Source: a virus
Reading direction: 5' to 3' (one strand)
Virus record (IMG/VR): IMGVR_UViG_3300044613_000080
Location: 1 to 26,740 of that record
DNA: 26,740 nucleotides
Positions within the stretch are counted from its first letter, which is position 1; each line of letters opens with the position of its first letter. The position numbers were made by a program, and so were the translations under genes. Under the pieces are notes generated by a model, which was given only the letters and a program-made list of their open reading frames with translations, made no database searches and was not told where the DNA came from. This document shows, piece by piece, positions 17,315 to 26,740 of the stretch.

Positions 17315-17343
17315 AAAAAGGGGATGAGTTTTGCCCATCCCCC
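17315..17343 (-). terminator. Intrinsic terminator after the major capsid gene
   Basis: On the minus strand, GGGGATG (17342-17336) pairs with CATCCCC (17326-17320) around a 9-base loop, and TTTTT (17319-17315) follows at once. This is a textbook rho-independent terminator 26 bases after the capsid stop. A second inverted repeat, ACTTATCT (17353-17360) with AGATAAGT (17372-17379), spans the stop codon itself, perhaps stabilising the 3' end. Confidence 0.85.
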
Positions 17344-17368
17344 TATTCTACAACTTATCTGTTATTTA

Positions 17369-18316
17369 TCAAGATAAGTCAAATGCACCGCCATGAGCTG
17401 CCTCATTGCGAACTTCGAGGGTCAATTCAGCCAAGATTTGTGTCTTGTCTGCATCGCCAACTTTTGCCAATTCGTTAGTTTGGAATGGGCGCAAGTATGC
17501 CAAAGCTGCATACTCAGGATCGAGTACGAGGGCATCACGAGTACGCATAAAGCGGTTAGGAACGATCTGCAATACACCAAAGTCGGACTGATACAAATCA
17601 GCACCGGCTAGGATAGTTGCTTGACCATTGGTAGGTACTTGGTAACGCTGTGCAGCCAAGCCTGTGAAAGCTGAAACTACTTGCTTGAGAGCAGGAGAAA
17701 CAACTAACAAGGAAGGTGTGCCACCGCTTGTAAATACCTTGCTGATAACATTCTTGAGAATGGTCTCAGTAAAGCTACGAGTTGTACCATCGGTACGGGT
17801 AGAAACACCAAGGGTTGCAGGGTCTACACCAGCAGTCGTACCAGACGATTTATCGGTATTGGTCTTGATATAAGACAACAACGAACCCATAACACGAGCT
17901 GTACTATTACTTGTACCAACGGCTTGACCTTGGTTAGCAGTAATGATGGTCTCGATGTCGCGCTTAATTTCAGCAGAAGCTTTAGCCAATTGATAAGCCT
18001 TCTCAGACTTACGACCAGCTTTGTCTACTGCCTCTAGCGTACCAGAGATCATAATGGTCTTACCTACGATCTGTGTGTAGTTACCGAGACGAGATGTTGG
18101 GCTAAGAGTTGCCTCAGAAGCAGTTGCACCTTCAACTAATGCGTTGGTGGTTGTAGCTGCTGCAAGGCTATCTGTCTGCCACTCGTGGTAAACGGCTGTT
18201 GCCTTTGTCTTACCAATAGACGACATGATTGGTGTGTCTGTTGGGGAGATGTTGTAGATCACATCGCTGAGATCTTCACGAGCGCCTACTGCGTCGTAAC
18301 GATTATATGCTGCCAT
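17369..18316 (-). CDS. Major capsid protein, SU10 type
   Basis: 315 aa. NRYDAVGAREDLSDVIYNIS, then PTDTPIMSSIGKTKATAVYH, then EWQTDSLAAA (about residues 5-54) is the opening of the SU10-type major head protein family (HK97 fold). RLGNYTQIVGKTIMISGTLE (about 81-100) and KSEKAYQLAKASAEIKRDIE (about 108-127) form the spine region. GGTPSLLVVSPALKQVVSAF and TILAGADLYQSDFGVLQIVP belong to the axial domain, and RNEAAHGGAFDLS is the C-terminus. It assembles the icosahedral or prolate shell around the scaffold. AAGGAAAT gives a strong ribosome site, and the gene is followed by an intrinsic terminator. Plus-strand frames in this region are shadows of it. Confidence 0.9.
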   Translation of the reverse strand: MAAYNRYDAVGAREDLSDVIYNISPTDTPIMSSIGKTKATAVYHEWQTDSLAAATTTNALVEGATASEATLSPTSRLGNYTQIVGKTIMISGTLEAVDKAGRKSEKAYQLAKASAEIKRDIETIITANQGQAVGTSNSTARVMGSLLSYIKTNTDKSSGTTAGVDPATLGVSTRTDGTTRSFTETILKNVISKVFTSGGTPSLLVVSPALKQVVSAFTGLAAQRYQVPTNGQATILAGADLYQSDFGVLQIVPNRFMRTRDALVLDPEYAALAYLRPFQTNELAKVGDADKTQILAELTLEVRNEAAHGGAFDLS

Positions 18317-19329: not shown

Positions 19330-19560
19330 TTAAAAAATCTTCCACTTCTTGTCTACTATTTGCTTGTCATCTGACACAGCTTGAATAGAAGCAATAAGTT
19401 CGTCTAGCACCTTTAACTTAATAAAGTTTCGTTCCCGAATCTCTATATCGTTATCAGCACTATTAAAAATATTATTCTTGTACAGAGTCCGTTGGTTTTC
19501 CACAAGTTCTAAAAAGAACTCATCGTGTAAATATGCGGATGCTCTTGAACTATCTCTCAT
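19330..19560 (-). CDS. Small portal-scaffold intergenic protein (76 aa)
   Basis: 76 aa, charged, predicted all-helical: SSRASAYLHDEFFLELVENQ, RTLYKNNIFNSADNDIEIRE and NFIKLKVLDELIASIQAVSD. Its start overlaps the portal stop by one base (TAATG), so it is translated with the portal. Proteins of this size and helical character between portal and scaffold are common in podoviruses, without assigned function. A head-assembly helper is plausible; the name is from context only. Confidence 0.55.
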   Translation of the reverse strand: MRDSSRASAYLHDEFFLELVENQRTLYKNNIFNSADNDIEIRERNFIKLKVLDELIASIQAVSDDKQIVDKKWKIF

Positions 19561-21593
19561 TAAATAACATTAGGTATGTTTGCAGTAGGTGATAGTTTAG
19601 CCCCAAGTTGTAGAGCTTTCAACTGTGCCTCGTACTCAAACTCCTGTTGTTTCAAAGCCATTTCCATTTGGAACTTCTCACGCTCCAACTGAATCTGAGC
19701 CTCTGCTTTGGCTCGTGATACTTCGATGTCGCTCATTGCCTTGGCTCTGTCTGCCTCAATCTTAGCCTCTTGTTGTGCTACATAGGCTTGAATTGCAGGA
19801 TCAGGCTGTGCTGGTTGTTGAGCGTTCTGTTGAAGCATTTGCTCAGTCTCAGGTGTAATCTCGGCAAAGAACTCTGTAGAATCTTTGAACCCTGCTGCCT
19901 CAATAAAGCGACCTAATGTCTGCCGGTAGTTTGTCAGACTGACCAATGGATTGGATAGACCAACCTCTCGCAAAATAGCCTCTTGCTTCTCTAATACCAT
20001 AGCGATCATTGCCATCTGTTCTTGTTTGTTTCCTGTACCTAAACCGACATTAATTGAGATGTCAAAGCCATTTGCCCACTCTCTTGGGTCAATCGACACA
20101 TATTTGCCTCTTAAACGCACTACACGAGCTTTATCTTGGTACTTGCATAGTAGGTGTAGGATCTTTTGGAAAAGGTCTTTAACGCCTGTTTCTGCGAATA
20201 CACGAGCGATTAACTCCATCTTGCCTGCTGCTGCGTTTGTAACTGCTGCAACTGCTGTGGCTGTCGTGTTTTGTAGAACATTAGGGTCTAAGCCCTGGCT
20301 AACATCCGATACACCAGTACGCTTTGCCTGTACTCCATCAAGGTACTCTAGGAGTGGGAAAGATTGAGCTGCGGTAGGTGGCACAGTAAGAGGTGTAATC
20401 GCATTGATATTCTTTGTGCGAACAATCCCATTAGCAGTAACTGTTAATAGGTCATCTAGGTTTACTTGCCCTTCTACAATCTGTAGGCGAGGGCTATTGG
20501 TCATGTACATATTGTCAAGAATCTGACGAGTAACTGTAGACTTAATCAACTGCAAGTCCATTGCCCGATCAGCCAGACTTTGACCAAAGAACTTGTGTGG
20601 CATTGGGATTGGGCAGATCGAGCAGAAAGGAACAAAGTCCGCTTCTTCGTTATCTAAGATCTCTTTGCCAGAATAGGTTACTTTACGCAGTTCAGCGATC
20701 CCATCGCCATCCATGTCGCACTTAATATAGCATTCAAATACTTCTACTTCTTGCATTGAGTCATCGACCATGTTCTGATCGTCTGGCTGTTCGCCTTGTG
20801 AAAACCGAGCTACACGCTCTTGGTTATAGGTAATGTCTCCAAATGTAGGAAGAGTCTCAATGATCTTCTTATTGAATCCCATTGCTACTAAGTCTGAGCG
20901 AGTAACCAATCTGCGATGGGCTACGAATGGGCTATCGCCTATAGTTCGTGCTTTCTTAGAGATTAAGAACTCCTCTGGTGGCACATTCTCTACAATAACT
21001 TTGCCATCTTTTTCGGTCTTTTTGATCTTGACATCGTAAGCAAAGACAGGGATTACTGCGCCTATCATTGGATCTACATTCTCTGCTACTTGTCTACTGT
21101 CCTGATTTACTACCTCGATGCCAGGATCAGTTACCAACATCGTTAATTCTTCTTCGGTCAGGTCTTTATAGGACTCCTTCGTTACATCTACCTTCTCATC
21201 CCAATAGACTTTAACAATGCCATTCTTTTGTAGAAGTGCATCCTTAAACCAGTTATGGAATATCAAGACTCCATCGTTATCTCGGCTCATCACCCAATTA
21301 ACATACTCGGTAGCTTGCTTGGCTTTGTCCTCATCGCCTTGGAACTTAGGCTCAAAGCGCACCATCTCGTCAGACTGCGTAAACACTCGTAGGAGCTGTG
21401 GCAATGCACCATCGACTACCTCTGCTACCTCGCCTGTAACGATTTGACTACGACCCTCTACTTCGTTCCCATAGGGGTAACGATTATAGTATTCAATCGC
21501 TTTGCGTCTATCGTCTGTGGTTTCTGTTTCTATGAAACCGATAGCATTGTCGATCTCGGCATCTAGTATGCCTTTTAGTTTGCCTTCATCCAT
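19560..21593 (-). CDS. Portal protein, P22 type
   Basis: 677 aa, near P22 portal size. EYYNRYPYGNEVEGRSQIVT (about residues 49-68) followed by DGALPQLLRVFTQSDEMVRF (about 81-100) is the conserved N-terminal wing. HNWFKDALLQKNGIVKVYWD is the next block. FCSICPIPMPHKFFGQSLAD and LIKSTVTRQILDNMYMTN (about 345-372) form the stem/clip region, followed by GVSDVSQGLDPNVLQNTTAT. The last 100 residues are Gln/Glu/Lys-rich helix (QIQLEREKFQMEMALKQQEF), resembling the barrel helix of P22 portal. Twelve copies form the DNA channel at one head vertex; terminase docks here during packaging. It follows large terminase by 3 bases. The ribosome site is weak, suggesting coupling. Confidence 0.9.
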   Translation of the reverse strand: MDEGKLKGILDAEIDNAIGFIETETTDDRRKAIEYYNRYPYGNEVEGRSQIVTGEVAEVVDGALPQLLRVFTQSDEMVRFEPKFQGDEDKAKQATEYVNWVMSRDNDGVLIFHNWFKDALLQKNGIVKVYWDEKVDVTKESYKDLTEEELTMLVTDPGIEVVNQDSRQVAENVDPMIGAVIPVFAYDVKIKKTEKDGKVIVENVPPEEFLISKKARTIGDSPFVAHRRLVTRSDLVAMGFNKKIIETLPTFGDITYNQERVARFSQGEQPDDQNMVDDSMQEVEVFECYIKCDMDGDGIAELRKVTYSGKEILDNEEADFVPFCSICPIPMPHKFFGQSLADRAMDLQLIKSTVTRQILDNMYMTNSPRLQIVEGQVNLDDLLTVTANGIVRTKNINAITPLTVPPTAAQSFPLLEYLDGVQAKRTGVSDVSQGLDPNVLQNTTATAVAAVTNAAAGKMELIARVFAETGVKDLFQKILHLLCKYQDKARVVRLRGKYVSIDPREWANGFDISINVGLGTGNKQEQMAMIAMVLEKQEAILREVGLSNPLVSLTNYRQTLGRFIEAAGFKDSTEFFAEITPETEQMLQQNAQQPAQPDPAIQAYVAQQEAKIEADRAKAMSDIEVSRAKAEAQIQLEREKFQMEMALKQQEFEYEAQLKALQLGAKLSPTANIPNVI

Positions 21594-21596
21594 GTC

Positions 21597-22883
21597 TTAA
21601 ACTATCCATTTCGTGTTGATCTTAATCGGCTGACCCCAAGTGCTTTCTTGTTCCATTCCTAATGCTAAATAACGAAAGCTGTCGCTGCCATGACTTGCCC
21701 AATCGTGCATTGGCTTGTCAAAAAAGACATTACGCTTTTCATCATAATCGCGCCTATAGTTCCTAAGACAGTCTAGCCCTTGCTTTACCTGTGGCATATT
21801 GAACCAACATCTCGGTAGGAGTCTACGGACTGCCTGAATACCATCATCTACAGAAAGTCTTGGCAGAACCCGAACATCTAGTCCAGCTTCTCTCAACACT
21901 TCCAATCTGCTCTTGCCTGTGCCTAATTCTCTTACTTCTACATCGTGTGGTAGGAGTTGCTCTGCTTTCTCCCACTTGTTATCTTTTAGCCAGTTGACAT
22001 ACCAATCGAGTCCTTGACCATGATTCTCTACATAATCTAGTAGTCTTACTTCTTGTCCTGTTGTTTGTGCCACCCATATTGCTGTGCTATCACCCATGCC
22101 CAAATCCCAAGCCACATAAGTTCTACAGAGATCATCTCTTGTAATGTCGCAAAGTCTACCTTTTTCTTCGAGGTCGTTGATGAGTTTTCCATAGTAACTT
22201 CCCTCTACTGCTGCGTTAAAACTACACTCGAACTCTTGGTTGTACTTATCGTCTCCCATCTCTTTCTTGGCAGACCATAACTCTTGTTCATCTATTAGCT
22301 TTGTTTCGCTTGCCTTAAACTGTAATGCACTCCATCCTTCTTCTTTCCCTGCTCTGTCGAACAAGTCCTTGAAGTGGTTGTTTCCCTTGGGTGTGCCAAT
22401 AAACAAACAAAACCCTTTTCTGTCTGCCAAACTGGGTCTCAGGATCTCGTTCCAAATCTTAGGATTCTGATCGCCAATTTCGTCTAAAACTGATCCGTCA
22501 AAATATTGACCTCTGAGTGAGTCTGGGTTATCTGATCCGTATAACTGTATTCTTCTACCAAAGAAGTCTACCCTTAACTCCGCAATATTGGCTGTTGCAT
22601 CCAATGGTCTACAGAAGTTTGTAAGGTAATCCCAAGCTACTCTCTTTGCCTGGCTATATGTTGGCGCTATATACGCATACCGAGGGTTTGGCTTATCGTT
22701 CTCCATCGCTGCTTTGATTAGCGCATTAAGAGCCTGTACTGTCTTACCCATACGCCTATGTGCCACTACCACTACGAAACGATTGTTCTCCATCGCCTCA
22801 TGGATCTGTAACTGTGGCTCTCTTGGCTTGTAGGGGATGACTACTCTTTTTACTTCGTCATCTGCGTACTCTACTTCTCCCAA
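21597..22883 (-). CDS. Large terminase subunit (ATPase/nuclease)
   Basis: 428 aa. Packaging ATPase: adenine-side PREPQ (residues 20-24), Walker A variant AHRRMGKT (41-48), Walker B VLDE (132-135, with catalytic Glu135), coupling motif GTPKG (163-167). The C-terminal RNase H-like nuclease follows: VAWDLGMGDSTAIW with Asp260 and Asp265, then PHDVEVRELGTGKS, then HDWASHGSDSFRYLALGM, which carries the last acidic pair. The enzyme cuts concatemeric phage DNA and pumps it through the portal. The start overlaps the small terminase by 13 bases. All catalytic positions appear intact, and the length is normal. Confidence 0.93.
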   Translation of the reverse strand: MGEVEYADDEVKRVVIPYKPREPQLQIHEAMENNRFVVVVAHRRMGKTVQALNALIKAAMENDKPNPRYAYIAPTYSQAKRVAWDYLTNFCRPLDATANIAELRVDFFGRRIQLYGSDNPDSLRGQYFDGSVLDEIGDQNPKIWNEILRPSLADRKGFCLFIGTPKGNNHFKDLFDRAGKEEGWSALQFKASETKLIDEQELWSAKKEMGDDKYNQEFECSFNAAVEGSYYGKLINDLEEKGRLCDITRDDLCRTYVAWDLGMGDSTAIWVAQTTGQEVRLLDYVENHGQGLDWYVNWLKDNKWEKAEQLLPHDVEVRELGTGKSRLEVLREAGLDVRVLPRLSVDDGIQAVRRLLPRCWFNMPQVKQGLDCLRNYRRDYDEKRNVFFDKPMHDWASHGSDSFRYLALGMEQESTWGQPIKINTKWIV

Positions 22884-23473: not shown

Positions 23474-24739
23474 TAGTTCTTCGTTAATTATTCCACCATA
23501 AGGCTTCATTTCCATTGCCCTTCTATCGGCTTGCGAGAAATTTTTAGGATCTGCAATTCCTCTTTCTTTTACGACTTGAGGAAGTAGTTCAAATACAGTT
23601 CTTGGTTGATCTATTATTCCTAAACCTTGTCCTGGCACACCTCTTGGATATGCTGGATGTCCTGATTGCATAATCATTGGAGCATCTGCAAAGATTTCTC
23701 CAATATTCATAACATCAAGAGTTGGTGCGTTTAATTGTTTTGGGTCTGCTACAGCTAATCTAGCCTCGCCAATGTTTAAACCGCCAACATCTCTAAACTT
23801 TACATCCATCTCATTCATAACTGCTTTTCTGACTGTGTCAGGAGCTTCTCTAAATTGTTGAATGCTTTCTCTAGAATCTATACCTTTCCAATCTGGAATA
23901 AATCCTTTAATTGTTTTATTTAATGCTTTTTTATCTGTTTTGCTCAATGCACTTTCTGCATAATTAAGCATAGTTTCATAAGTCATATTGGCAAAATCAC
24001 CGCCAGATGGTGTCATTCTCCAAGGCAAATACAATGGATTTTGTCCTGTTGTATCTTTTAAATCTTTAGCCAACTCTAATATTGATTTTGTTGGTGCTTG
24101 AGCAGATGCCCATACTTGACCAGGATTATTAAACATATAGTCTTGACCACCAAGCAATCCAACTGGTCTATTTAAAACTACATCATTAATTTTTACCAAC
24201 TCACCGCCTGCTGCAGTTCTATCAGACATACTTGTAATAAATGGTCTACCCTCAAAATCTACAAGAGACAGTTTTTGCTGTGCTGGTGTTCTTTGTCCTT
24301 CAATAACTGTGGTTAGATTTTTTAATCTTTCTTGCTCTCCAACTCTTGGATCAAATTTTGGATCAAAATCTTTTACTTTTGATACAACTGTTGGAACTTT
24401 ACTAGCAACAGAACCCATAAGTCCTGGCACTTGTTCCATTAGCCTTGCAAGAGCTTGCCGGTCTCCTACATTGATACCGCCTTGATCCATTACTAGAGCT
24501 TTGTCTAGATCGGACATTTGCGTTTGTAGATTCTGTTGCGCTGACTGTGCCACATTTCTTGCATAGTCCATCACTTGTGGATTTGTCATTGCTGTCATCT
24601 GTGGTGGTGTGTAACCTTGTAATGCGCCTGCTAGTGTGCCTGTTGGCTGTCTGCCACCAAGAAGTCCTGCCATTGATGGTCTTTGCGGAGCTAACAAGCC
24701 ACCTAATCGGGCTTGTGCCAGATCTAATAGGCTTGCCAT
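23453..24739 (-). CDS. Putative virion or ejected protein with conserved SMSDRTAAG block (428 aa)
   Basis: 428 aa. The N-terminal ~60 residues are Gly/Leu/Pro-rich repeats (LGGLLAPQRPSMAGLLGGRQ). The middle has KLSLVDFEGRPFITSMSDRT, AAGGELVKINDVVLNRPVGL and GGQDYMFNNPGQVWASAQAP (about residues 156-215). I recognise that block from large, uncharacterised structural polyproteins of other phages. The remainder is helical with EIFADAPMIMQSGHPAYPRG near the end. No catalytic triad is evident. It lies upstream of terminase rather than with the ejection genes, which is unusual. AAGGAT is the ribosome site. It could be a head-internal protein or an ejected effector; the function is unknown. Confidence 0.55.
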   Translation of the reverse strand: MASLLDLAQARLGGLLAPQRPSMAGLLGGRQPTGTLAGALQGYTPPQMTAMTNPQVMDYARNVAQSAQQNLQTQMSDLDKALVMDQGGINVGDRQALARLMEQVPGLMGSVASKVPTVVSKVKDFDPKFDPRVGEQERLKNLTTVIEGQRTPAQQKLSLVDFEGRPFITSMSDRTAAGGELVKINDVVLNRPVGLLGGQDYMFNNPGQVWASAQAPTKSILELAKDLKDTTGQNPLYLPWRMTPSGGDFANMTYETMLNYAESALSKTDKKALNKTIKGFIPDWKGIDSRESIQQFREAPDTVRKAVMNEMDVKFRDVGGLNIGEARLAVADPKQLNAPTLDVMNIGEIFADAPMIMQSGHPAYPRGVPGQGLGIIDQPRTVFELLPQVVKERGIADPKNFSQADRRAMEMKPYGGIINEELLKALGY

Positions 24740-24755
24740 ATTTATCCTTTATTTG

Positions 24756-25043
24756 TTACCACTTAACTTTGTCTGCCCAATATGCCGCACTCATCTTGCC
24801 TTTAGCAATGTTGCTTGCATGACGAGCCTTAAATGATTTCTGTCTTGCTTTGCCTGCCTCGGTCTTGGGATTAGCACCTGCACCGCTTACACCTTGCTGA
24901 CCAAATCGTATTGTCTTTACCTTATCGCCTTCTTTTGCTACGACTACATGGCTTTTAGTAGGGTGGCTAGGTGTCTTTTTAGGCGAATTAAATCCGCTAA
25001 CACCTATTCTTTCAAAGAGTTTCGCAGCTTCTCTTATCTTCAC
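24756..25043 (-). CDS. Small basic protein, DUF6321-like (95 aa)
   Basis: 95 aa from a GTG start at 25043 that overlaps the stop of the preceding gene (GTGA). N-terminus MKIREAAKLFERIGVSGFNS, then KSHVVVAKEGDKVKTIRFGQ, then a C-terminal KSFKARHASNIAKGKMSAAYWADKVKW-type block (shared pattern: RFG, KSFKARH, SAAYWADKVKW). This end is widespread in phages near terminase genes and is classed as a domain of unknown function. The many Lys/Arg and conserved His/Trp suggest nucleic-acid binding. It belongs to a run of three short basic genes, all overlapping by 4 bases. Confidence 0.65.
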   Translation of the reverse strand: MKIREAAKLFERIGVSGFNSPKKTPSHPTKSHVVVAKEGDKVKTIRFGQQGVSGAGANPKTEAGKARQKSFKARHASNIAKGKMSAAYWADKVKW

Positions 25044-25201
25044 TTTTTGTATCGAGCAGACTTACCAGCTTCTGACATAGCAATTGCAATCGCCTGGCGA
25101 GGGTTCTTAACGACCTTACCGCCCTTGCCAGAATGTAGCTTGCCCTCTTTGTACTCGCCCATGACCTTACCGATCTTCTTTTGGGATTTGGTCATCTTCA
25201 T
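25040..25201 (-). CDS. Small basic protein, DUF6496-like (53 aa)
   Basis: 53 aa. KVMGEYKEGKLHSGKGGKVV, then KNPRQAIAIAMSEAGKSARY (about residues 12-51) is the standard text of the small DUF6496 proteins found in phages and bacteria (KxMxEFKxGxLxSxSGxxVxxxxQAIAIALSEA). ATG at 25201 overlaps the upstream stop (ATGA), and its stop overlaps the next gene start (GTGA). The protein is strongly basic; the function in the family is unknown, with DNA association plausible. It is short, but the conserved pattern and both overlaps make it secure. Confidence 0.8.
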   Translation of the reverse strand: MKMTKSQKKIGKVMGEYKEGKLHSGKGGKVVKNPRQAIAIAMSEAGKSARYKK

Positions 25202-25356
25202 TTTTTAGCCTTTACTGGTTTAGCTGTCTTAGCTGCTTGTTTGAAAGCCTTGGCTGTTGGCGCACCGGCTGTGCCTGGCTTACGCATCTTCTCGCCTGAT
25301 CCTTCGGCTATTCTTTTACGCTTTGCTGCGATATTGCTGTAGAGACCCTGTTTCAT
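25198..25356 (-). CDS. Small basic protein (52 aa)
   Basis: Start chosen at ATG 25356, which overlaps the preceding TGA (ATGA); the frame is open further upstream, but that part is a wrong-frame reading of an acidic tail and gives an Arg-rich artefact. The protein MKQGLYSNIAAKRKRIAEGS, then GEKMRKPGTAGAPTAKAFKQ, then AAKTAKPVKAKK is a very common short phage protein (MKQGLYxNIxAKRxRIxxGSGEKMRKPGxxGAPTxxxF) of unknown function, highly basic and probably disordered. It is likely a DNA-associated or virion protein. It forms a set with the next two genes. Confidence 0.75.
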   Translation of the reverse strand: MKQGLYSNIAAKRKRIAEGSGEKMRKPGTAGAPTAKAFKQAAKTAKPVKAKK

Positions 25357-25724
25357 TCTTCTTCCCCTTCTTCTTCCATTTCTTCTTCGCCTACAGCTTC
25401 CCAAGCCATGCAACCTCGTTCACCCTTGCAGACAAAATCGAATATCTCACAATGCCCCATGCCTTTAGGCACTCCGCACTTGCTCATTTCTTCGCCTGTT
25501 TCGTAGTATTCACAGGCTTTGCACTTGCCTTCACCATCTTTACGATCACCATAATCGGCTGTAATAACGGCTTTTTTCATGTTGCCTTTGTTAATATCGG
25601 CATCCACTGTAGAGAGTGGGCAAGACTCGGTATCCGACTCTAGTAGACCACCCTCGGACTTCTCAGCCATCTTAGGCTCTTTGCCAAGGAGTCCAATCAT
25701 TATCGACATACCTTTTTCTTTCAT
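25353..25724 (-). CDS. Cys-rich protein with acidic tail (123 aa), first late gene
   Basis: 123 aa. N-terminus contains an internal MSIMIGLLGK hydrophobic stretch. Residues 67-108 hold Cys68, Cys71 (CKACEYY), Cys83, Cys92, Cys99 and Cys105 (GCMAW), a spacing that could bind zinc or an iron-sulfur cluster. The last 13 residues are nearly all Glu (GEEEMEEEGEEE). Similar small Cys-rich proteins with a CxxCxYY...C...GxC..F pattern occur in aquatic phages with no known function. It is the first gene after the late-region terminator. The GGGTGA at 25733-25728 is its probable ribosome site. A metal-binding role is inferred from cysteines only. Confidence 0.6.
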   Translation of the reverse strand: MKEKGMSIMIGLLGKEPKMAEKSEGGLLESDTESCPLSTVDADINKGNMKKAVITADYGDRKDGEGKCKACEYYETGEEMSKCGVPKGMGHCEIFDFVCKGERGCMAWEAVGEEEMEEEGEEE

Positions 25725-25733
25725 ATTTCACCC

Positions 25734-25758
25734 GAAAAAAAGCCCTATTGCTAGGGCT
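25734..25758 (-). terminator. Intrinsic terminator in the leader of the late operon
   Basis: On the minus strand, AGCCCTA (25758-25752) and TAGGGCT (25747-25741) form a 7-bp stem closed by a GCAA tetraloop (GNRA type). Seven T residues (25741-25735) follow. It works only in the minus direction, as no T-run exists on the other side. It stands between the second glycosyltransferase and the first late gene, only 10 bases before that gene. Confidence 0.85.
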
Positions 25759-25780
25759 ATAAAGAAGAATCACTAAATTC

Positions 25781-25815
25781 TGGGTGCAATTACCCAAGAA
25801 AATTATACAACATTT
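25781..25815 (-). promoter_or_regulatory. Late promoter candidate with perfect TATAAT and early hairpin
   Basis: TATAAT (25807-25802) is a perfect -10 on the minus strand. The -35 is weak: TGGTTT lies 17 bases upstream, and a TTGAAA is too close. Such a promoter may need an activator. Initiation would fall near 25795, at the start of a small inverted repeat TGGGT/ACCCA (25781-25785 and 25792-25796). The full terminator at 25758-25734 follows about 40 bases later. Confidence 0.45.
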
Positions 25816-26499
25816 TCAAGCATTAAACCATCTTTTATACAAATCTGGTCTATTTTCTTTTAACCAATCTTTTGACTCATCGCTACATTGTTTGTAGTTT
25901 GTTCCGTAAGTTTGGCTTCCAACATGGTGAATGTATGCTCTAGCAATGTAAAGATTGTGTCCTTTAGCAATTTGGTTCATGCACCAAATGTCATCGGAGT
26001 ACCAATCAATTGGCGCACAGTCCTCCCAAGTATGTTTAGAGACCCAGTTGAATATTCCTGCAATATAGTCCGTTTGGATAATTTGATTCTCGCCTTCGTA
26101 ATTCAGCCCTACTAGGTTTCCTTGCCCATAACGAATGTTTTGTAGACCCTTGGCATAATTTGTTCTTGCTGCGACAGAGCCAATCTTGTCATCAACCTGT
26201 TTTATAAGCTCTACATCAGCGATTAGGTCTTGGTAGGATGATGGGTTCAAGACTACATCATCGGCACACGCTACAGCCTCTGGATAGTCCTCAAAAGCCT
26301 TATTAGTAATAAAGTTCCATGCCTTGCCACCTTTATCGTAAGTATGCTCAAAATTCCTAGTTTTATGCTTTGGTAATTTGTAATCTGATCCGCAAATGTA
26401 GATTTCCACATCTTCTGGCACATAGAGTTCTACAGATTTAAGTAGAACTGGTAAACACTTTTGGTTTTTAGAGCAAATTACGATTGGCGGTTTTTGCAT
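25816..26499 (-). CDS. Second glycosyltransferase-like protein (227 aa)
   Basis: 227 aa. PPIVICSKNQKCLPVLLKSV is the first strand and helix of a GT-A fold, EDVEIYICGSDYKL the second. ACADDVVLNPSSYQD (about residues 77-91) holds the DxD-like metal site at Asp80/Asp81. TDYIAGIFNWVSK and DWYSDDIWCMNQIAKGHNLY are the acceptor and base-motif regions, with HHVGSQT near the end. It probably transfers a sugar to an unknown acceptor. It stands upstream of the late promoter in the same direction and is terminated before the late genes, so it may be a middle or separately controlled gene. Divergent from the glycosyltransferase at 16307-16942. Fold assigned by motifs. Confidence 0.65.
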   Translation of the reverse strand: MQKPPIVICSKNQKCLPVLLKSVELYVPEDVEIYICGSDYKLPKHKTRNFEHTYDKGGKAWNFITNKAFEDYPEAVACADDVVLNPSSYQDLIADVELIKQVDDKIGSVAARTNYAKGLQNIRYGQGNLVGLNYEGENQIIQTDYIAGIFNWVSKHTWEDCAPIDWYSDDIWCMNQIAKGHNLYIARAYIHHVGSQTYGTNYKQCSDESKDWLKENRPDLYKRWFNA

Positions 26500-26520
26500 T
26501 GTAGACAGACAAACCTTTCG

Positions 26521-26740
26521 TTAATTCCATGATTGTATATCTCGAAAATCCCATTCTCGGTTGTCTTTTTCTCCTGACACCTTGAGCATATCCGCATAGT
26601 CTTTAGATTTGGCTTTCTTGTCGAGTTGGTCTTGGAGTCGCTTTTTAGCATTGTGTAGGTCTGTTTCGAATCGCTTTGTAGATATTCTAAGGTGATGGGC
26701 TAGTTGATTCTGACTAGCGTATGGGTGGCTTATATAACGA
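26521..26740 (-). CDS. Putative helix-turn-helix DNA-binding protein, 3' part
   Basis: The frame runs off the right edge, so the N-terminus is missing; 72 residues are visible. HPYASQNQLAHHLRISTKRF is compatible with a helix-turn-helix (QNQLAHHL - turn - ISTKRFETDL). A Lys/Gln-rich coil (NAKKRLQDQLDKKAKSKDYA) and an acidic/aromatic end (NREWDFRDIQSWN) follow. This would suit a small transcriptional or replication regulator, perhaps of the late promoter next door. It precedes the glycosyltransferase by 21 bases on the same strand. The DNA-binding role is inferred from the helix pattern only. Confidence 0.5.
   Translation of the reverse strand, partial: RYISHPYASQNQLAHHLRISTKRFETDLHNAKKRLQDQLDKKAKSKDYADMLKVSGEKDNREWDFRDIQSWN

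Follow-up and report, generated by a model that had tools for sequence, protein, structure and literature searches.

A probable Q21/AlpA-type late-control module in uncultivated freshwater phages

Antitermination from loci that join a promoter, a terminator and an antiterminator has been established by experiment for phage 21 Q (Q21) and for AlpA (PMC6606751, PMC9371919, PMC7969949). Both systems need a binding element between the -35 and -10 positions, together with a -10-like pause sequence (PMC6606751, PMC9371919), and in the structure of Q21 a domain resembling sigma region 4 has helix 1 packed against it (PMC6606751). Here we describe a locus of comparable layout in an IMG/VR virus record, analyzed as a single 26.7-kb stretch of DNA (the window), the minus strand of which carries a block of late genes (Table 1).

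Downstream of the first late gene, this strand encodes the terminase and portal proteins, and the same block includes a major capsid protein of the SU10 type. The first late gene itself, which is cysteine-rich and falls into no family, found zero matches when compared with phage records by tblastn. Relatives of the window phage are common in IMG/VR, where they reach lengths of 34-36 kb, and the nearest relatives of its portal in the annotated collection are those of uncultivated spring phages (60%) and Methylophilales phage Venkman (53%); the phage belongs to a large group of uncultivated freshwater phages. One 95-aa gene of the window is much more widely conserved than its neighbors, with counterparts at about 60-79% identity in marine roseophages, cyanophages and other phages.

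Table 1. Positions of the features discussed, numbered from the first nucleotide of the window
Feature	Position	Strand	Remarks
Q-like antiterminator gene (putative), 3' part	26521..26740	-	helix-turn-helix resembling sigma region 4; runs off the window
57-aa ORF, CxxC-x24-CxxC zinc ribbon	26478..26651	-	+1 frame; overlaps 3' end of Q-like gene
Inserted 227-aa gene	25816..26499	-	no family match; separates the promoter from the Q-like gene
Invariant AAA 5' of -10	25814..25816	-	candidate part of antiterminator-binding site, from a position like that of QBE/ABE
-10 element TATAAT of late promoter	25802..25807	-	from sequence and conservation in relatives
Leader hairpin TGGGT-AATTGC-ACCCA	25781..25796	-	at predicted transcript 5' end; conserved
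CA(A/G)AAT, -10-like, candidate pause element	25777..25782	-	transcribed region, near +14; conserved across clades
Intrinsic terminator AGCCCTA-GCAA-TAGGGCT + T6	25735..25758	-	7-bp stem 25758-25741, T6 25740-25735
First late gene	25353..25724	-	123 aa; ATG at 25724
95-aa gene	24756..25043	-	function unassigned
Terminase	21597..22883	-	late strand
Portal	19560..21593	-	late strand
Major capsid protein, SU10 type	17369..18316	-	same late block
Second strong terminator of late strand	17318..17344	-	directly behind major capsid gene

Late promoter and terminator

A sequence-only reading of the window had proposed that a perfect TATAAT with a poor -35 is followed, some 40-60 bases downstream on the same strand, by a strong terminator placed just ahead of the first late gene. 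Inspection of this region bears the arrangement out. With a spacing of 17 nt, TGGTTT occupies the -35 position, matching at two of six bases, and 43 nt separate the TATAAT from the terminator stem; in order along the minus strand come TATAAT, TTTCTTGGGTAATTGCACCCAGAATTTAGTGATTCTTCTTTAT, the terminator stem, T6, a GGGTG ribosome-binding stretch and the ATG. The T tract abuts the ribosome-binding stretch and ends 10 nt short of the start codon, so that the gap between terminator and late gene fits no promoter. A TATAAT by itself is not rare (there are four on the minus strand of the window), and a sigma-70 site scan of positions 24000-26740 found none; the late-promoter TATAAT is credible because it is conserved in relatives. 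The isolated terminator hairpin folds at about -11 kcal/mol, and the window contains two perfect 7-bp, T6-tailed stems, this one and the one behind the major capsid gene, where 200 dinucleotide shuffles average 0.005.

To describe conservation of the promoter-terminator pair, which does extend to related phages, we grouped 70 distinct relatives by the identity of their first late gene. Where identity is at least 80% (50 relatives), the TATAAT and leader are kept in 48 and the terminator in 40; at 60-80% (16 relatives), the -10 is still present, with leader and terminator in none; and below 60% (four relatives), the terminator is found in three. Altogether the terminator is missing in 27 of the 70, including clades that retain the Q-like protein discussed below. 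The element motif occurs once per genome, and the promoter-leader element is conserved while the gene upstream of it changes: it is preceded by the Q-like gene directly, by the Q-like gene and a 227-aa cassette, or by the Q-like gene with further genes. The cassette position is a cargo slot, which in relatives may be empty or filled by a 94% copy or a 41-45% version. The earlier description of the terminator as GNRA-capped holds for the window, where the loop is GCAA, but not for the element at large, since relatives carry GCAA, GAAA, GTAT, GTAA and other loops. A reading of the same hairpin as a boxB of the lambda N/nut type was rejected on similar evidence: the loops vary (GTAT, GTAAC, TTGTAC) and the T tract is kept.

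Two further observations concern terminators elsewhere. In the clade comprising L303, L304, L307, L308 and L313, a T-tailed hairpin (GTGGGC-AAGTAC-GCCCAT + T8) stands about 5 nt behind the -10, a placement at which a terminated RNA would measure only about 26 nt. On the late strand of the window, the leader terminator and the one behind the capsid gene are nearly the only strong ones; the latter is kept in several relatives (G002, G003, G005 and G006), among them one, G006, that lacks the leader terminator.

The Q-like protein and its Burkholderiales homologues

In relatives that hold the region, the gene lying directly 5' of the promoter, or of the inserted cassette and promoter, encodes a helix-turn-helix protein that we term Q-like. 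Its C-terminal 72 aa lie inside the window; full-length versions in relatives span 134-152 aa, and the gene occurs once per genome in records that hold it. Family searches returned weak matches to sigma region 4 and to phrog_19609 (unknown function), a below-cut-off match to the PA0613 family (for which our literature search found passing mentions and no functional paper) and, for the distant homologue L065, a weak match to the Q-like phrog_79 (E 0.022). A Pfam search gave no Q family, with Phage_antitermQ (PF06530) unmatched up to E 1. Searching PDB sequences with Q-like profiles likewise yielded coiled coils, one sigma factor and chance matches rather than any Q protein, an expected outcome because AlpA and Q21 share no sequence similarity. 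The ctXG6705 protein, annotated as antitermination protein Q, was considered as a homologue and set aside, its weak sigma-4 similarity being insufficient to show homology.

We compared AlphaFold models of two family members, L103 and the approximately 40% identical L065, with solved structures; the two underlying alignments share members, such that the models are not fully independent. Q21 is the best structural match of both (Z 10.0 each; 106 residues at 5.0 A and 109 residues at 3.8 A), aligning from residue 1 through the DNA-binding helix (model residues 1-131 and 1-130), and other Q21 entries score Z of about 8-9 over 93-114 residues. Sigma factors reach Z 9.0, mostly over residues 45-125, the sigma-4-like half. 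The models reproduce the arrangement in which helix 1 packs on the sigma-4-like helix-turn-helix domain. Model confidence is modest (pLDDT 72-74) and Foldseek E-values are not significant. The Q-like protein thus likely has the Q21 fold, a prediction that stops short of proof because the lead over sigma chains is modest, at about 1 Z unit, and the ring-forming N-terminal loop is poorly modelled.

Paraburkholderia phage IPK encodes, at the end of its genome, a homologue with 31% identity. Scanning genomes with the freshwater Q-like profile found zero loci; the IPK protein as query recovered seven loci in Burkholderiales genomes as well as Burkholderia phage Magia, and the freshwater and Burkholderiales profiles align in hhalign (97.4%, E 1.2e-11, 117 columns). 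Six of the seven genome loci have a strong terminator no more than 125 nt from the stop codon, compared with 13 of 600 random stretches. In Magia, an annotated terminator follows the homologue gene by 80 nt, and a RusA resolvase is encoded two genes upstream. In IPK, a hairpin occupies the last bases of the record and its T tract seems to continue at the first bases, which is why the automatic scan misses it. Five sequences (L322-L325 and L320, the last being IPK) contain a TTGTAA-17-TAT(A/G)AT promoter with a -10 that overlaps the stop codon. Here the promoter sits in the last codons of the putative antiterminator gene, the stop codon forming the -10 (CTATGA/GTATAA). The Burkholderiales relatives also carry TAGATT or CAGATT near +1, a -10-like candidate found in a search for a pause sequence. 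As the homologues, too, precede terminators, the order antiterminator, promoter, terminator recurs in two separated phage groups.

We consider it probable that the promoter-terminator pair and the Q-like gene form a late-control module of the Q21/AlpA type. The kind is known; the Q-like antiterminator is a divergent, so far unannotated, new member of it. Polymerase would start at the -35-less TATAAT and, if unmodified, run into the intrinsic terminator and stop after about 60 nt. The Q-like protein would bind promoter DNA through its sigma-region-4-like helix-turn-helix, join an early, probably paused polymerase and, with its N-terminal loop, narrow the RNA exit channel such that the terminator hairpin could not form; the modified polymerase would then transcribe the packaging, head and tail genes. 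Analogy with Q21 and AlpA is our basis for proposing binding, pausing, antitermination and timing for the Q-like protein. The lambda-like logic suggested earlier (late promoter, early terminator, antiterminator) fits these findings and gains support from sequence and modelling. The helix-turn-helix gene at the window edge, one of the sources then considered for the antiterminator, is favored by its predicted fold, its position and its terminator-preceding Burkholderiales homologues.

Not everything fits the module as described. If antitermination were complete, the second terminator, behind the capsid gene, would serve no purpose; its presence suggests either partial antitermination or tuning of capsid dosage. 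Furthermore, clades that have the Q-like gene and lack the leader terminator indicate that this terminator is not essential to the role of the protein. Resistance to terminators or Rho along the long late operon could suffice to keep the gene, and in some relatives the protein may be directed solely against Rho or terminators lying further downstream.

Those same clades, which retain protein and promoter, could also be read differently. Regulators of the RinA/ArpU type are thought to replace sigma region 4, and the helix-turn-helix protein might similarly be a late activator at a -35-less promoter, the terminator serving only to insulate the late operon from upstream read-through or to trim leaky transcription. 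The poor -35 beside a strong -10 and the sigma-region-4 similarity of the protein agree with such a role. An insulating terminator, however, would precede the promoter rather than follow it, the Q21 structural match includes helix 1, which lies outside the sigma-4 domain, and the Burkholderiales homologues pair the terminator with a promoter that has a recognizable -35; we therefore regard activation as unlikely.

The conserved leader

Beyond the elements reported earlier, a second, conserved hairpin stands at the predicted start of the transcript. To our knowledge, such a 5' leader hairpin has no counterpart in Q systems; it may stabilize the mRNA or hinder backtracking. Each main helix, terminator stem and leader hairpin alike, is paired in 98.8% of cells across 17 diverse sequences, and both are kept through double changes, with changes from U-A to C-G in the leader hairpin. 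The leader differs at 0.053 per site, whereas fourfold sites in the gene that follows differ at 0.302, in a set chosen by motif, whose motif positions are invariant by construction. Two other proposed pairings were rejected: the hairpin GAATTT/GTGATTC is broken in variants, and a long-range pairing of CACCC with the ribosome-binding GGGTG is not followed by the variants GAGTG, GGATG and GGGCG.

Neither the candidate binding signal nor the candidate pause signal convinces by itself. Only the AAA and one T are invariant across relatives 5' of the -10, and we found no clear Q-binding repeat. The candidate pause element near +14 scores no better than shuffles (P 0.69), though it is conserved across clades.

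A zinc-ribbon ORF of about 57 aa lies beside the Q-like gene in all 24 listed loci, down to the approximately 40% identical clade (the loci include L103, L010, L043, L065 and L316-L319), and may, or may not, be part of the mechanism. Where relatives do not carry the inserted cassette, the TAA stop of this ORF falls inside the TATAAT of the late promoter. One could envisage that antitermination also needs both the leader hairpin and the zinc-ribbon protein, parts unknown from Q systems: the hairpin would form as polymerase reaches the +14 pause sequence and prevent backtracking, and the protein encoded in the overlapping frame would be an obligate partner. That both parts are needed together strikes us as unlikely.

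The leader is strongly conserved along its entire length, in loop and linker as well, and this, together with its fold (-19.5 kcal/mol for 65 nt, z -3.25), would also suit a terminated RNA of about 60 nt that is itself the product, a small regulatory RNA, with the late genes expressed from elsewhere or by leak-through. The gap that separates the terminator from the first late gene is, however, too small to hold a further promoter; in some relatives the linker is lost along with the terminator while promoter and hairpin are retained; and the Q-type module would in any event generate a short RNA as a by-product. Such a role is accordingly very improbable. Control of the terminator by an RNA-only attenuator or riboswitch, without a phage protein, is least credible of all, since the conserved leader hairpin does adjoin the terminator but no alternative pairing was seen that would disrupt it, the second predicted stem, GAATTT/GTGATTC, does not survive in natural variants, and an Rfam 15 search of 25400-26740 gave chance matches only, none near threshold.

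Comparison with described antitermination systems

The Q-type module, as predicted from sequence and models, would make late-gene antitermination the likely function of an unannotated protein family (the freshwater group together with phrog_19609) that is common to abundant uncultivated freshwater phages and to Burkholderiales phages and prophages. It would extend Q-type control beyond the classical lambdoid phages to genomes with an SU10-type capsid, in a layout with a very short distance from promoter to terminator, and Burkholderia phage Magia and Paraburkholderia phage IPK provide cultivable systems in which to test it.

The order of antiterminator gene, late promoter, terminator and late genes is that of lambda Q/pR'/tR'. 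In lambda, the terminator lies about 194 nt downstream of the late promoter. Lambda Q differs from the Q21 type in its fold outside the helix-turn-helix (PMC6606751). GafZ of the Caulobacter gene transfer agent is likewise a sigma-like helix-turn-helix antiterminator that acts from one promoter on a virion gene cluster; it differs in working with GafY and IHF, in having its terminator after the first gene and in using a palindromic site between -10 and -35 (PMC11150451).

AlpA of Pseudomonas aeruginosa (AlpA/PalpB/tB) resembles the present system as a helix-turn-helix antiterminator with a terminator immediately 5' of the first gene, but it serves chromosomal lysis genes and has two extra helices (PMC7969949, PMC9371919). 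Its binding element (ABE) lies between -35 and -10 (PMC7969949, PMC9371919), where only the AAA is a candidate here; no ABE-like GGGACG was seen 5' of the -10.

Phage 21 (Q/PR'/tR') shares the predicted fold, the sigma-region-4-type helix-turn-helix and the sequence of late promoter, terminator and late genes (PMC6606751). In contrast to phage 21, the Q-like protein has no detectable sequence similarity to Q21, no TGAGCA-type direct repeat was found, the terminator is very close (an RNA of about 60 nt) and directly adjoins the site where ribosomes would bind for the first late gene, and the transcript begins with a conserved 5' hairpin. What the locus has in common with Q modules is a putative antiterminator gene beside the late promoter, a terminator ahead of the late genes and a predicted Q21/AlpA fold.
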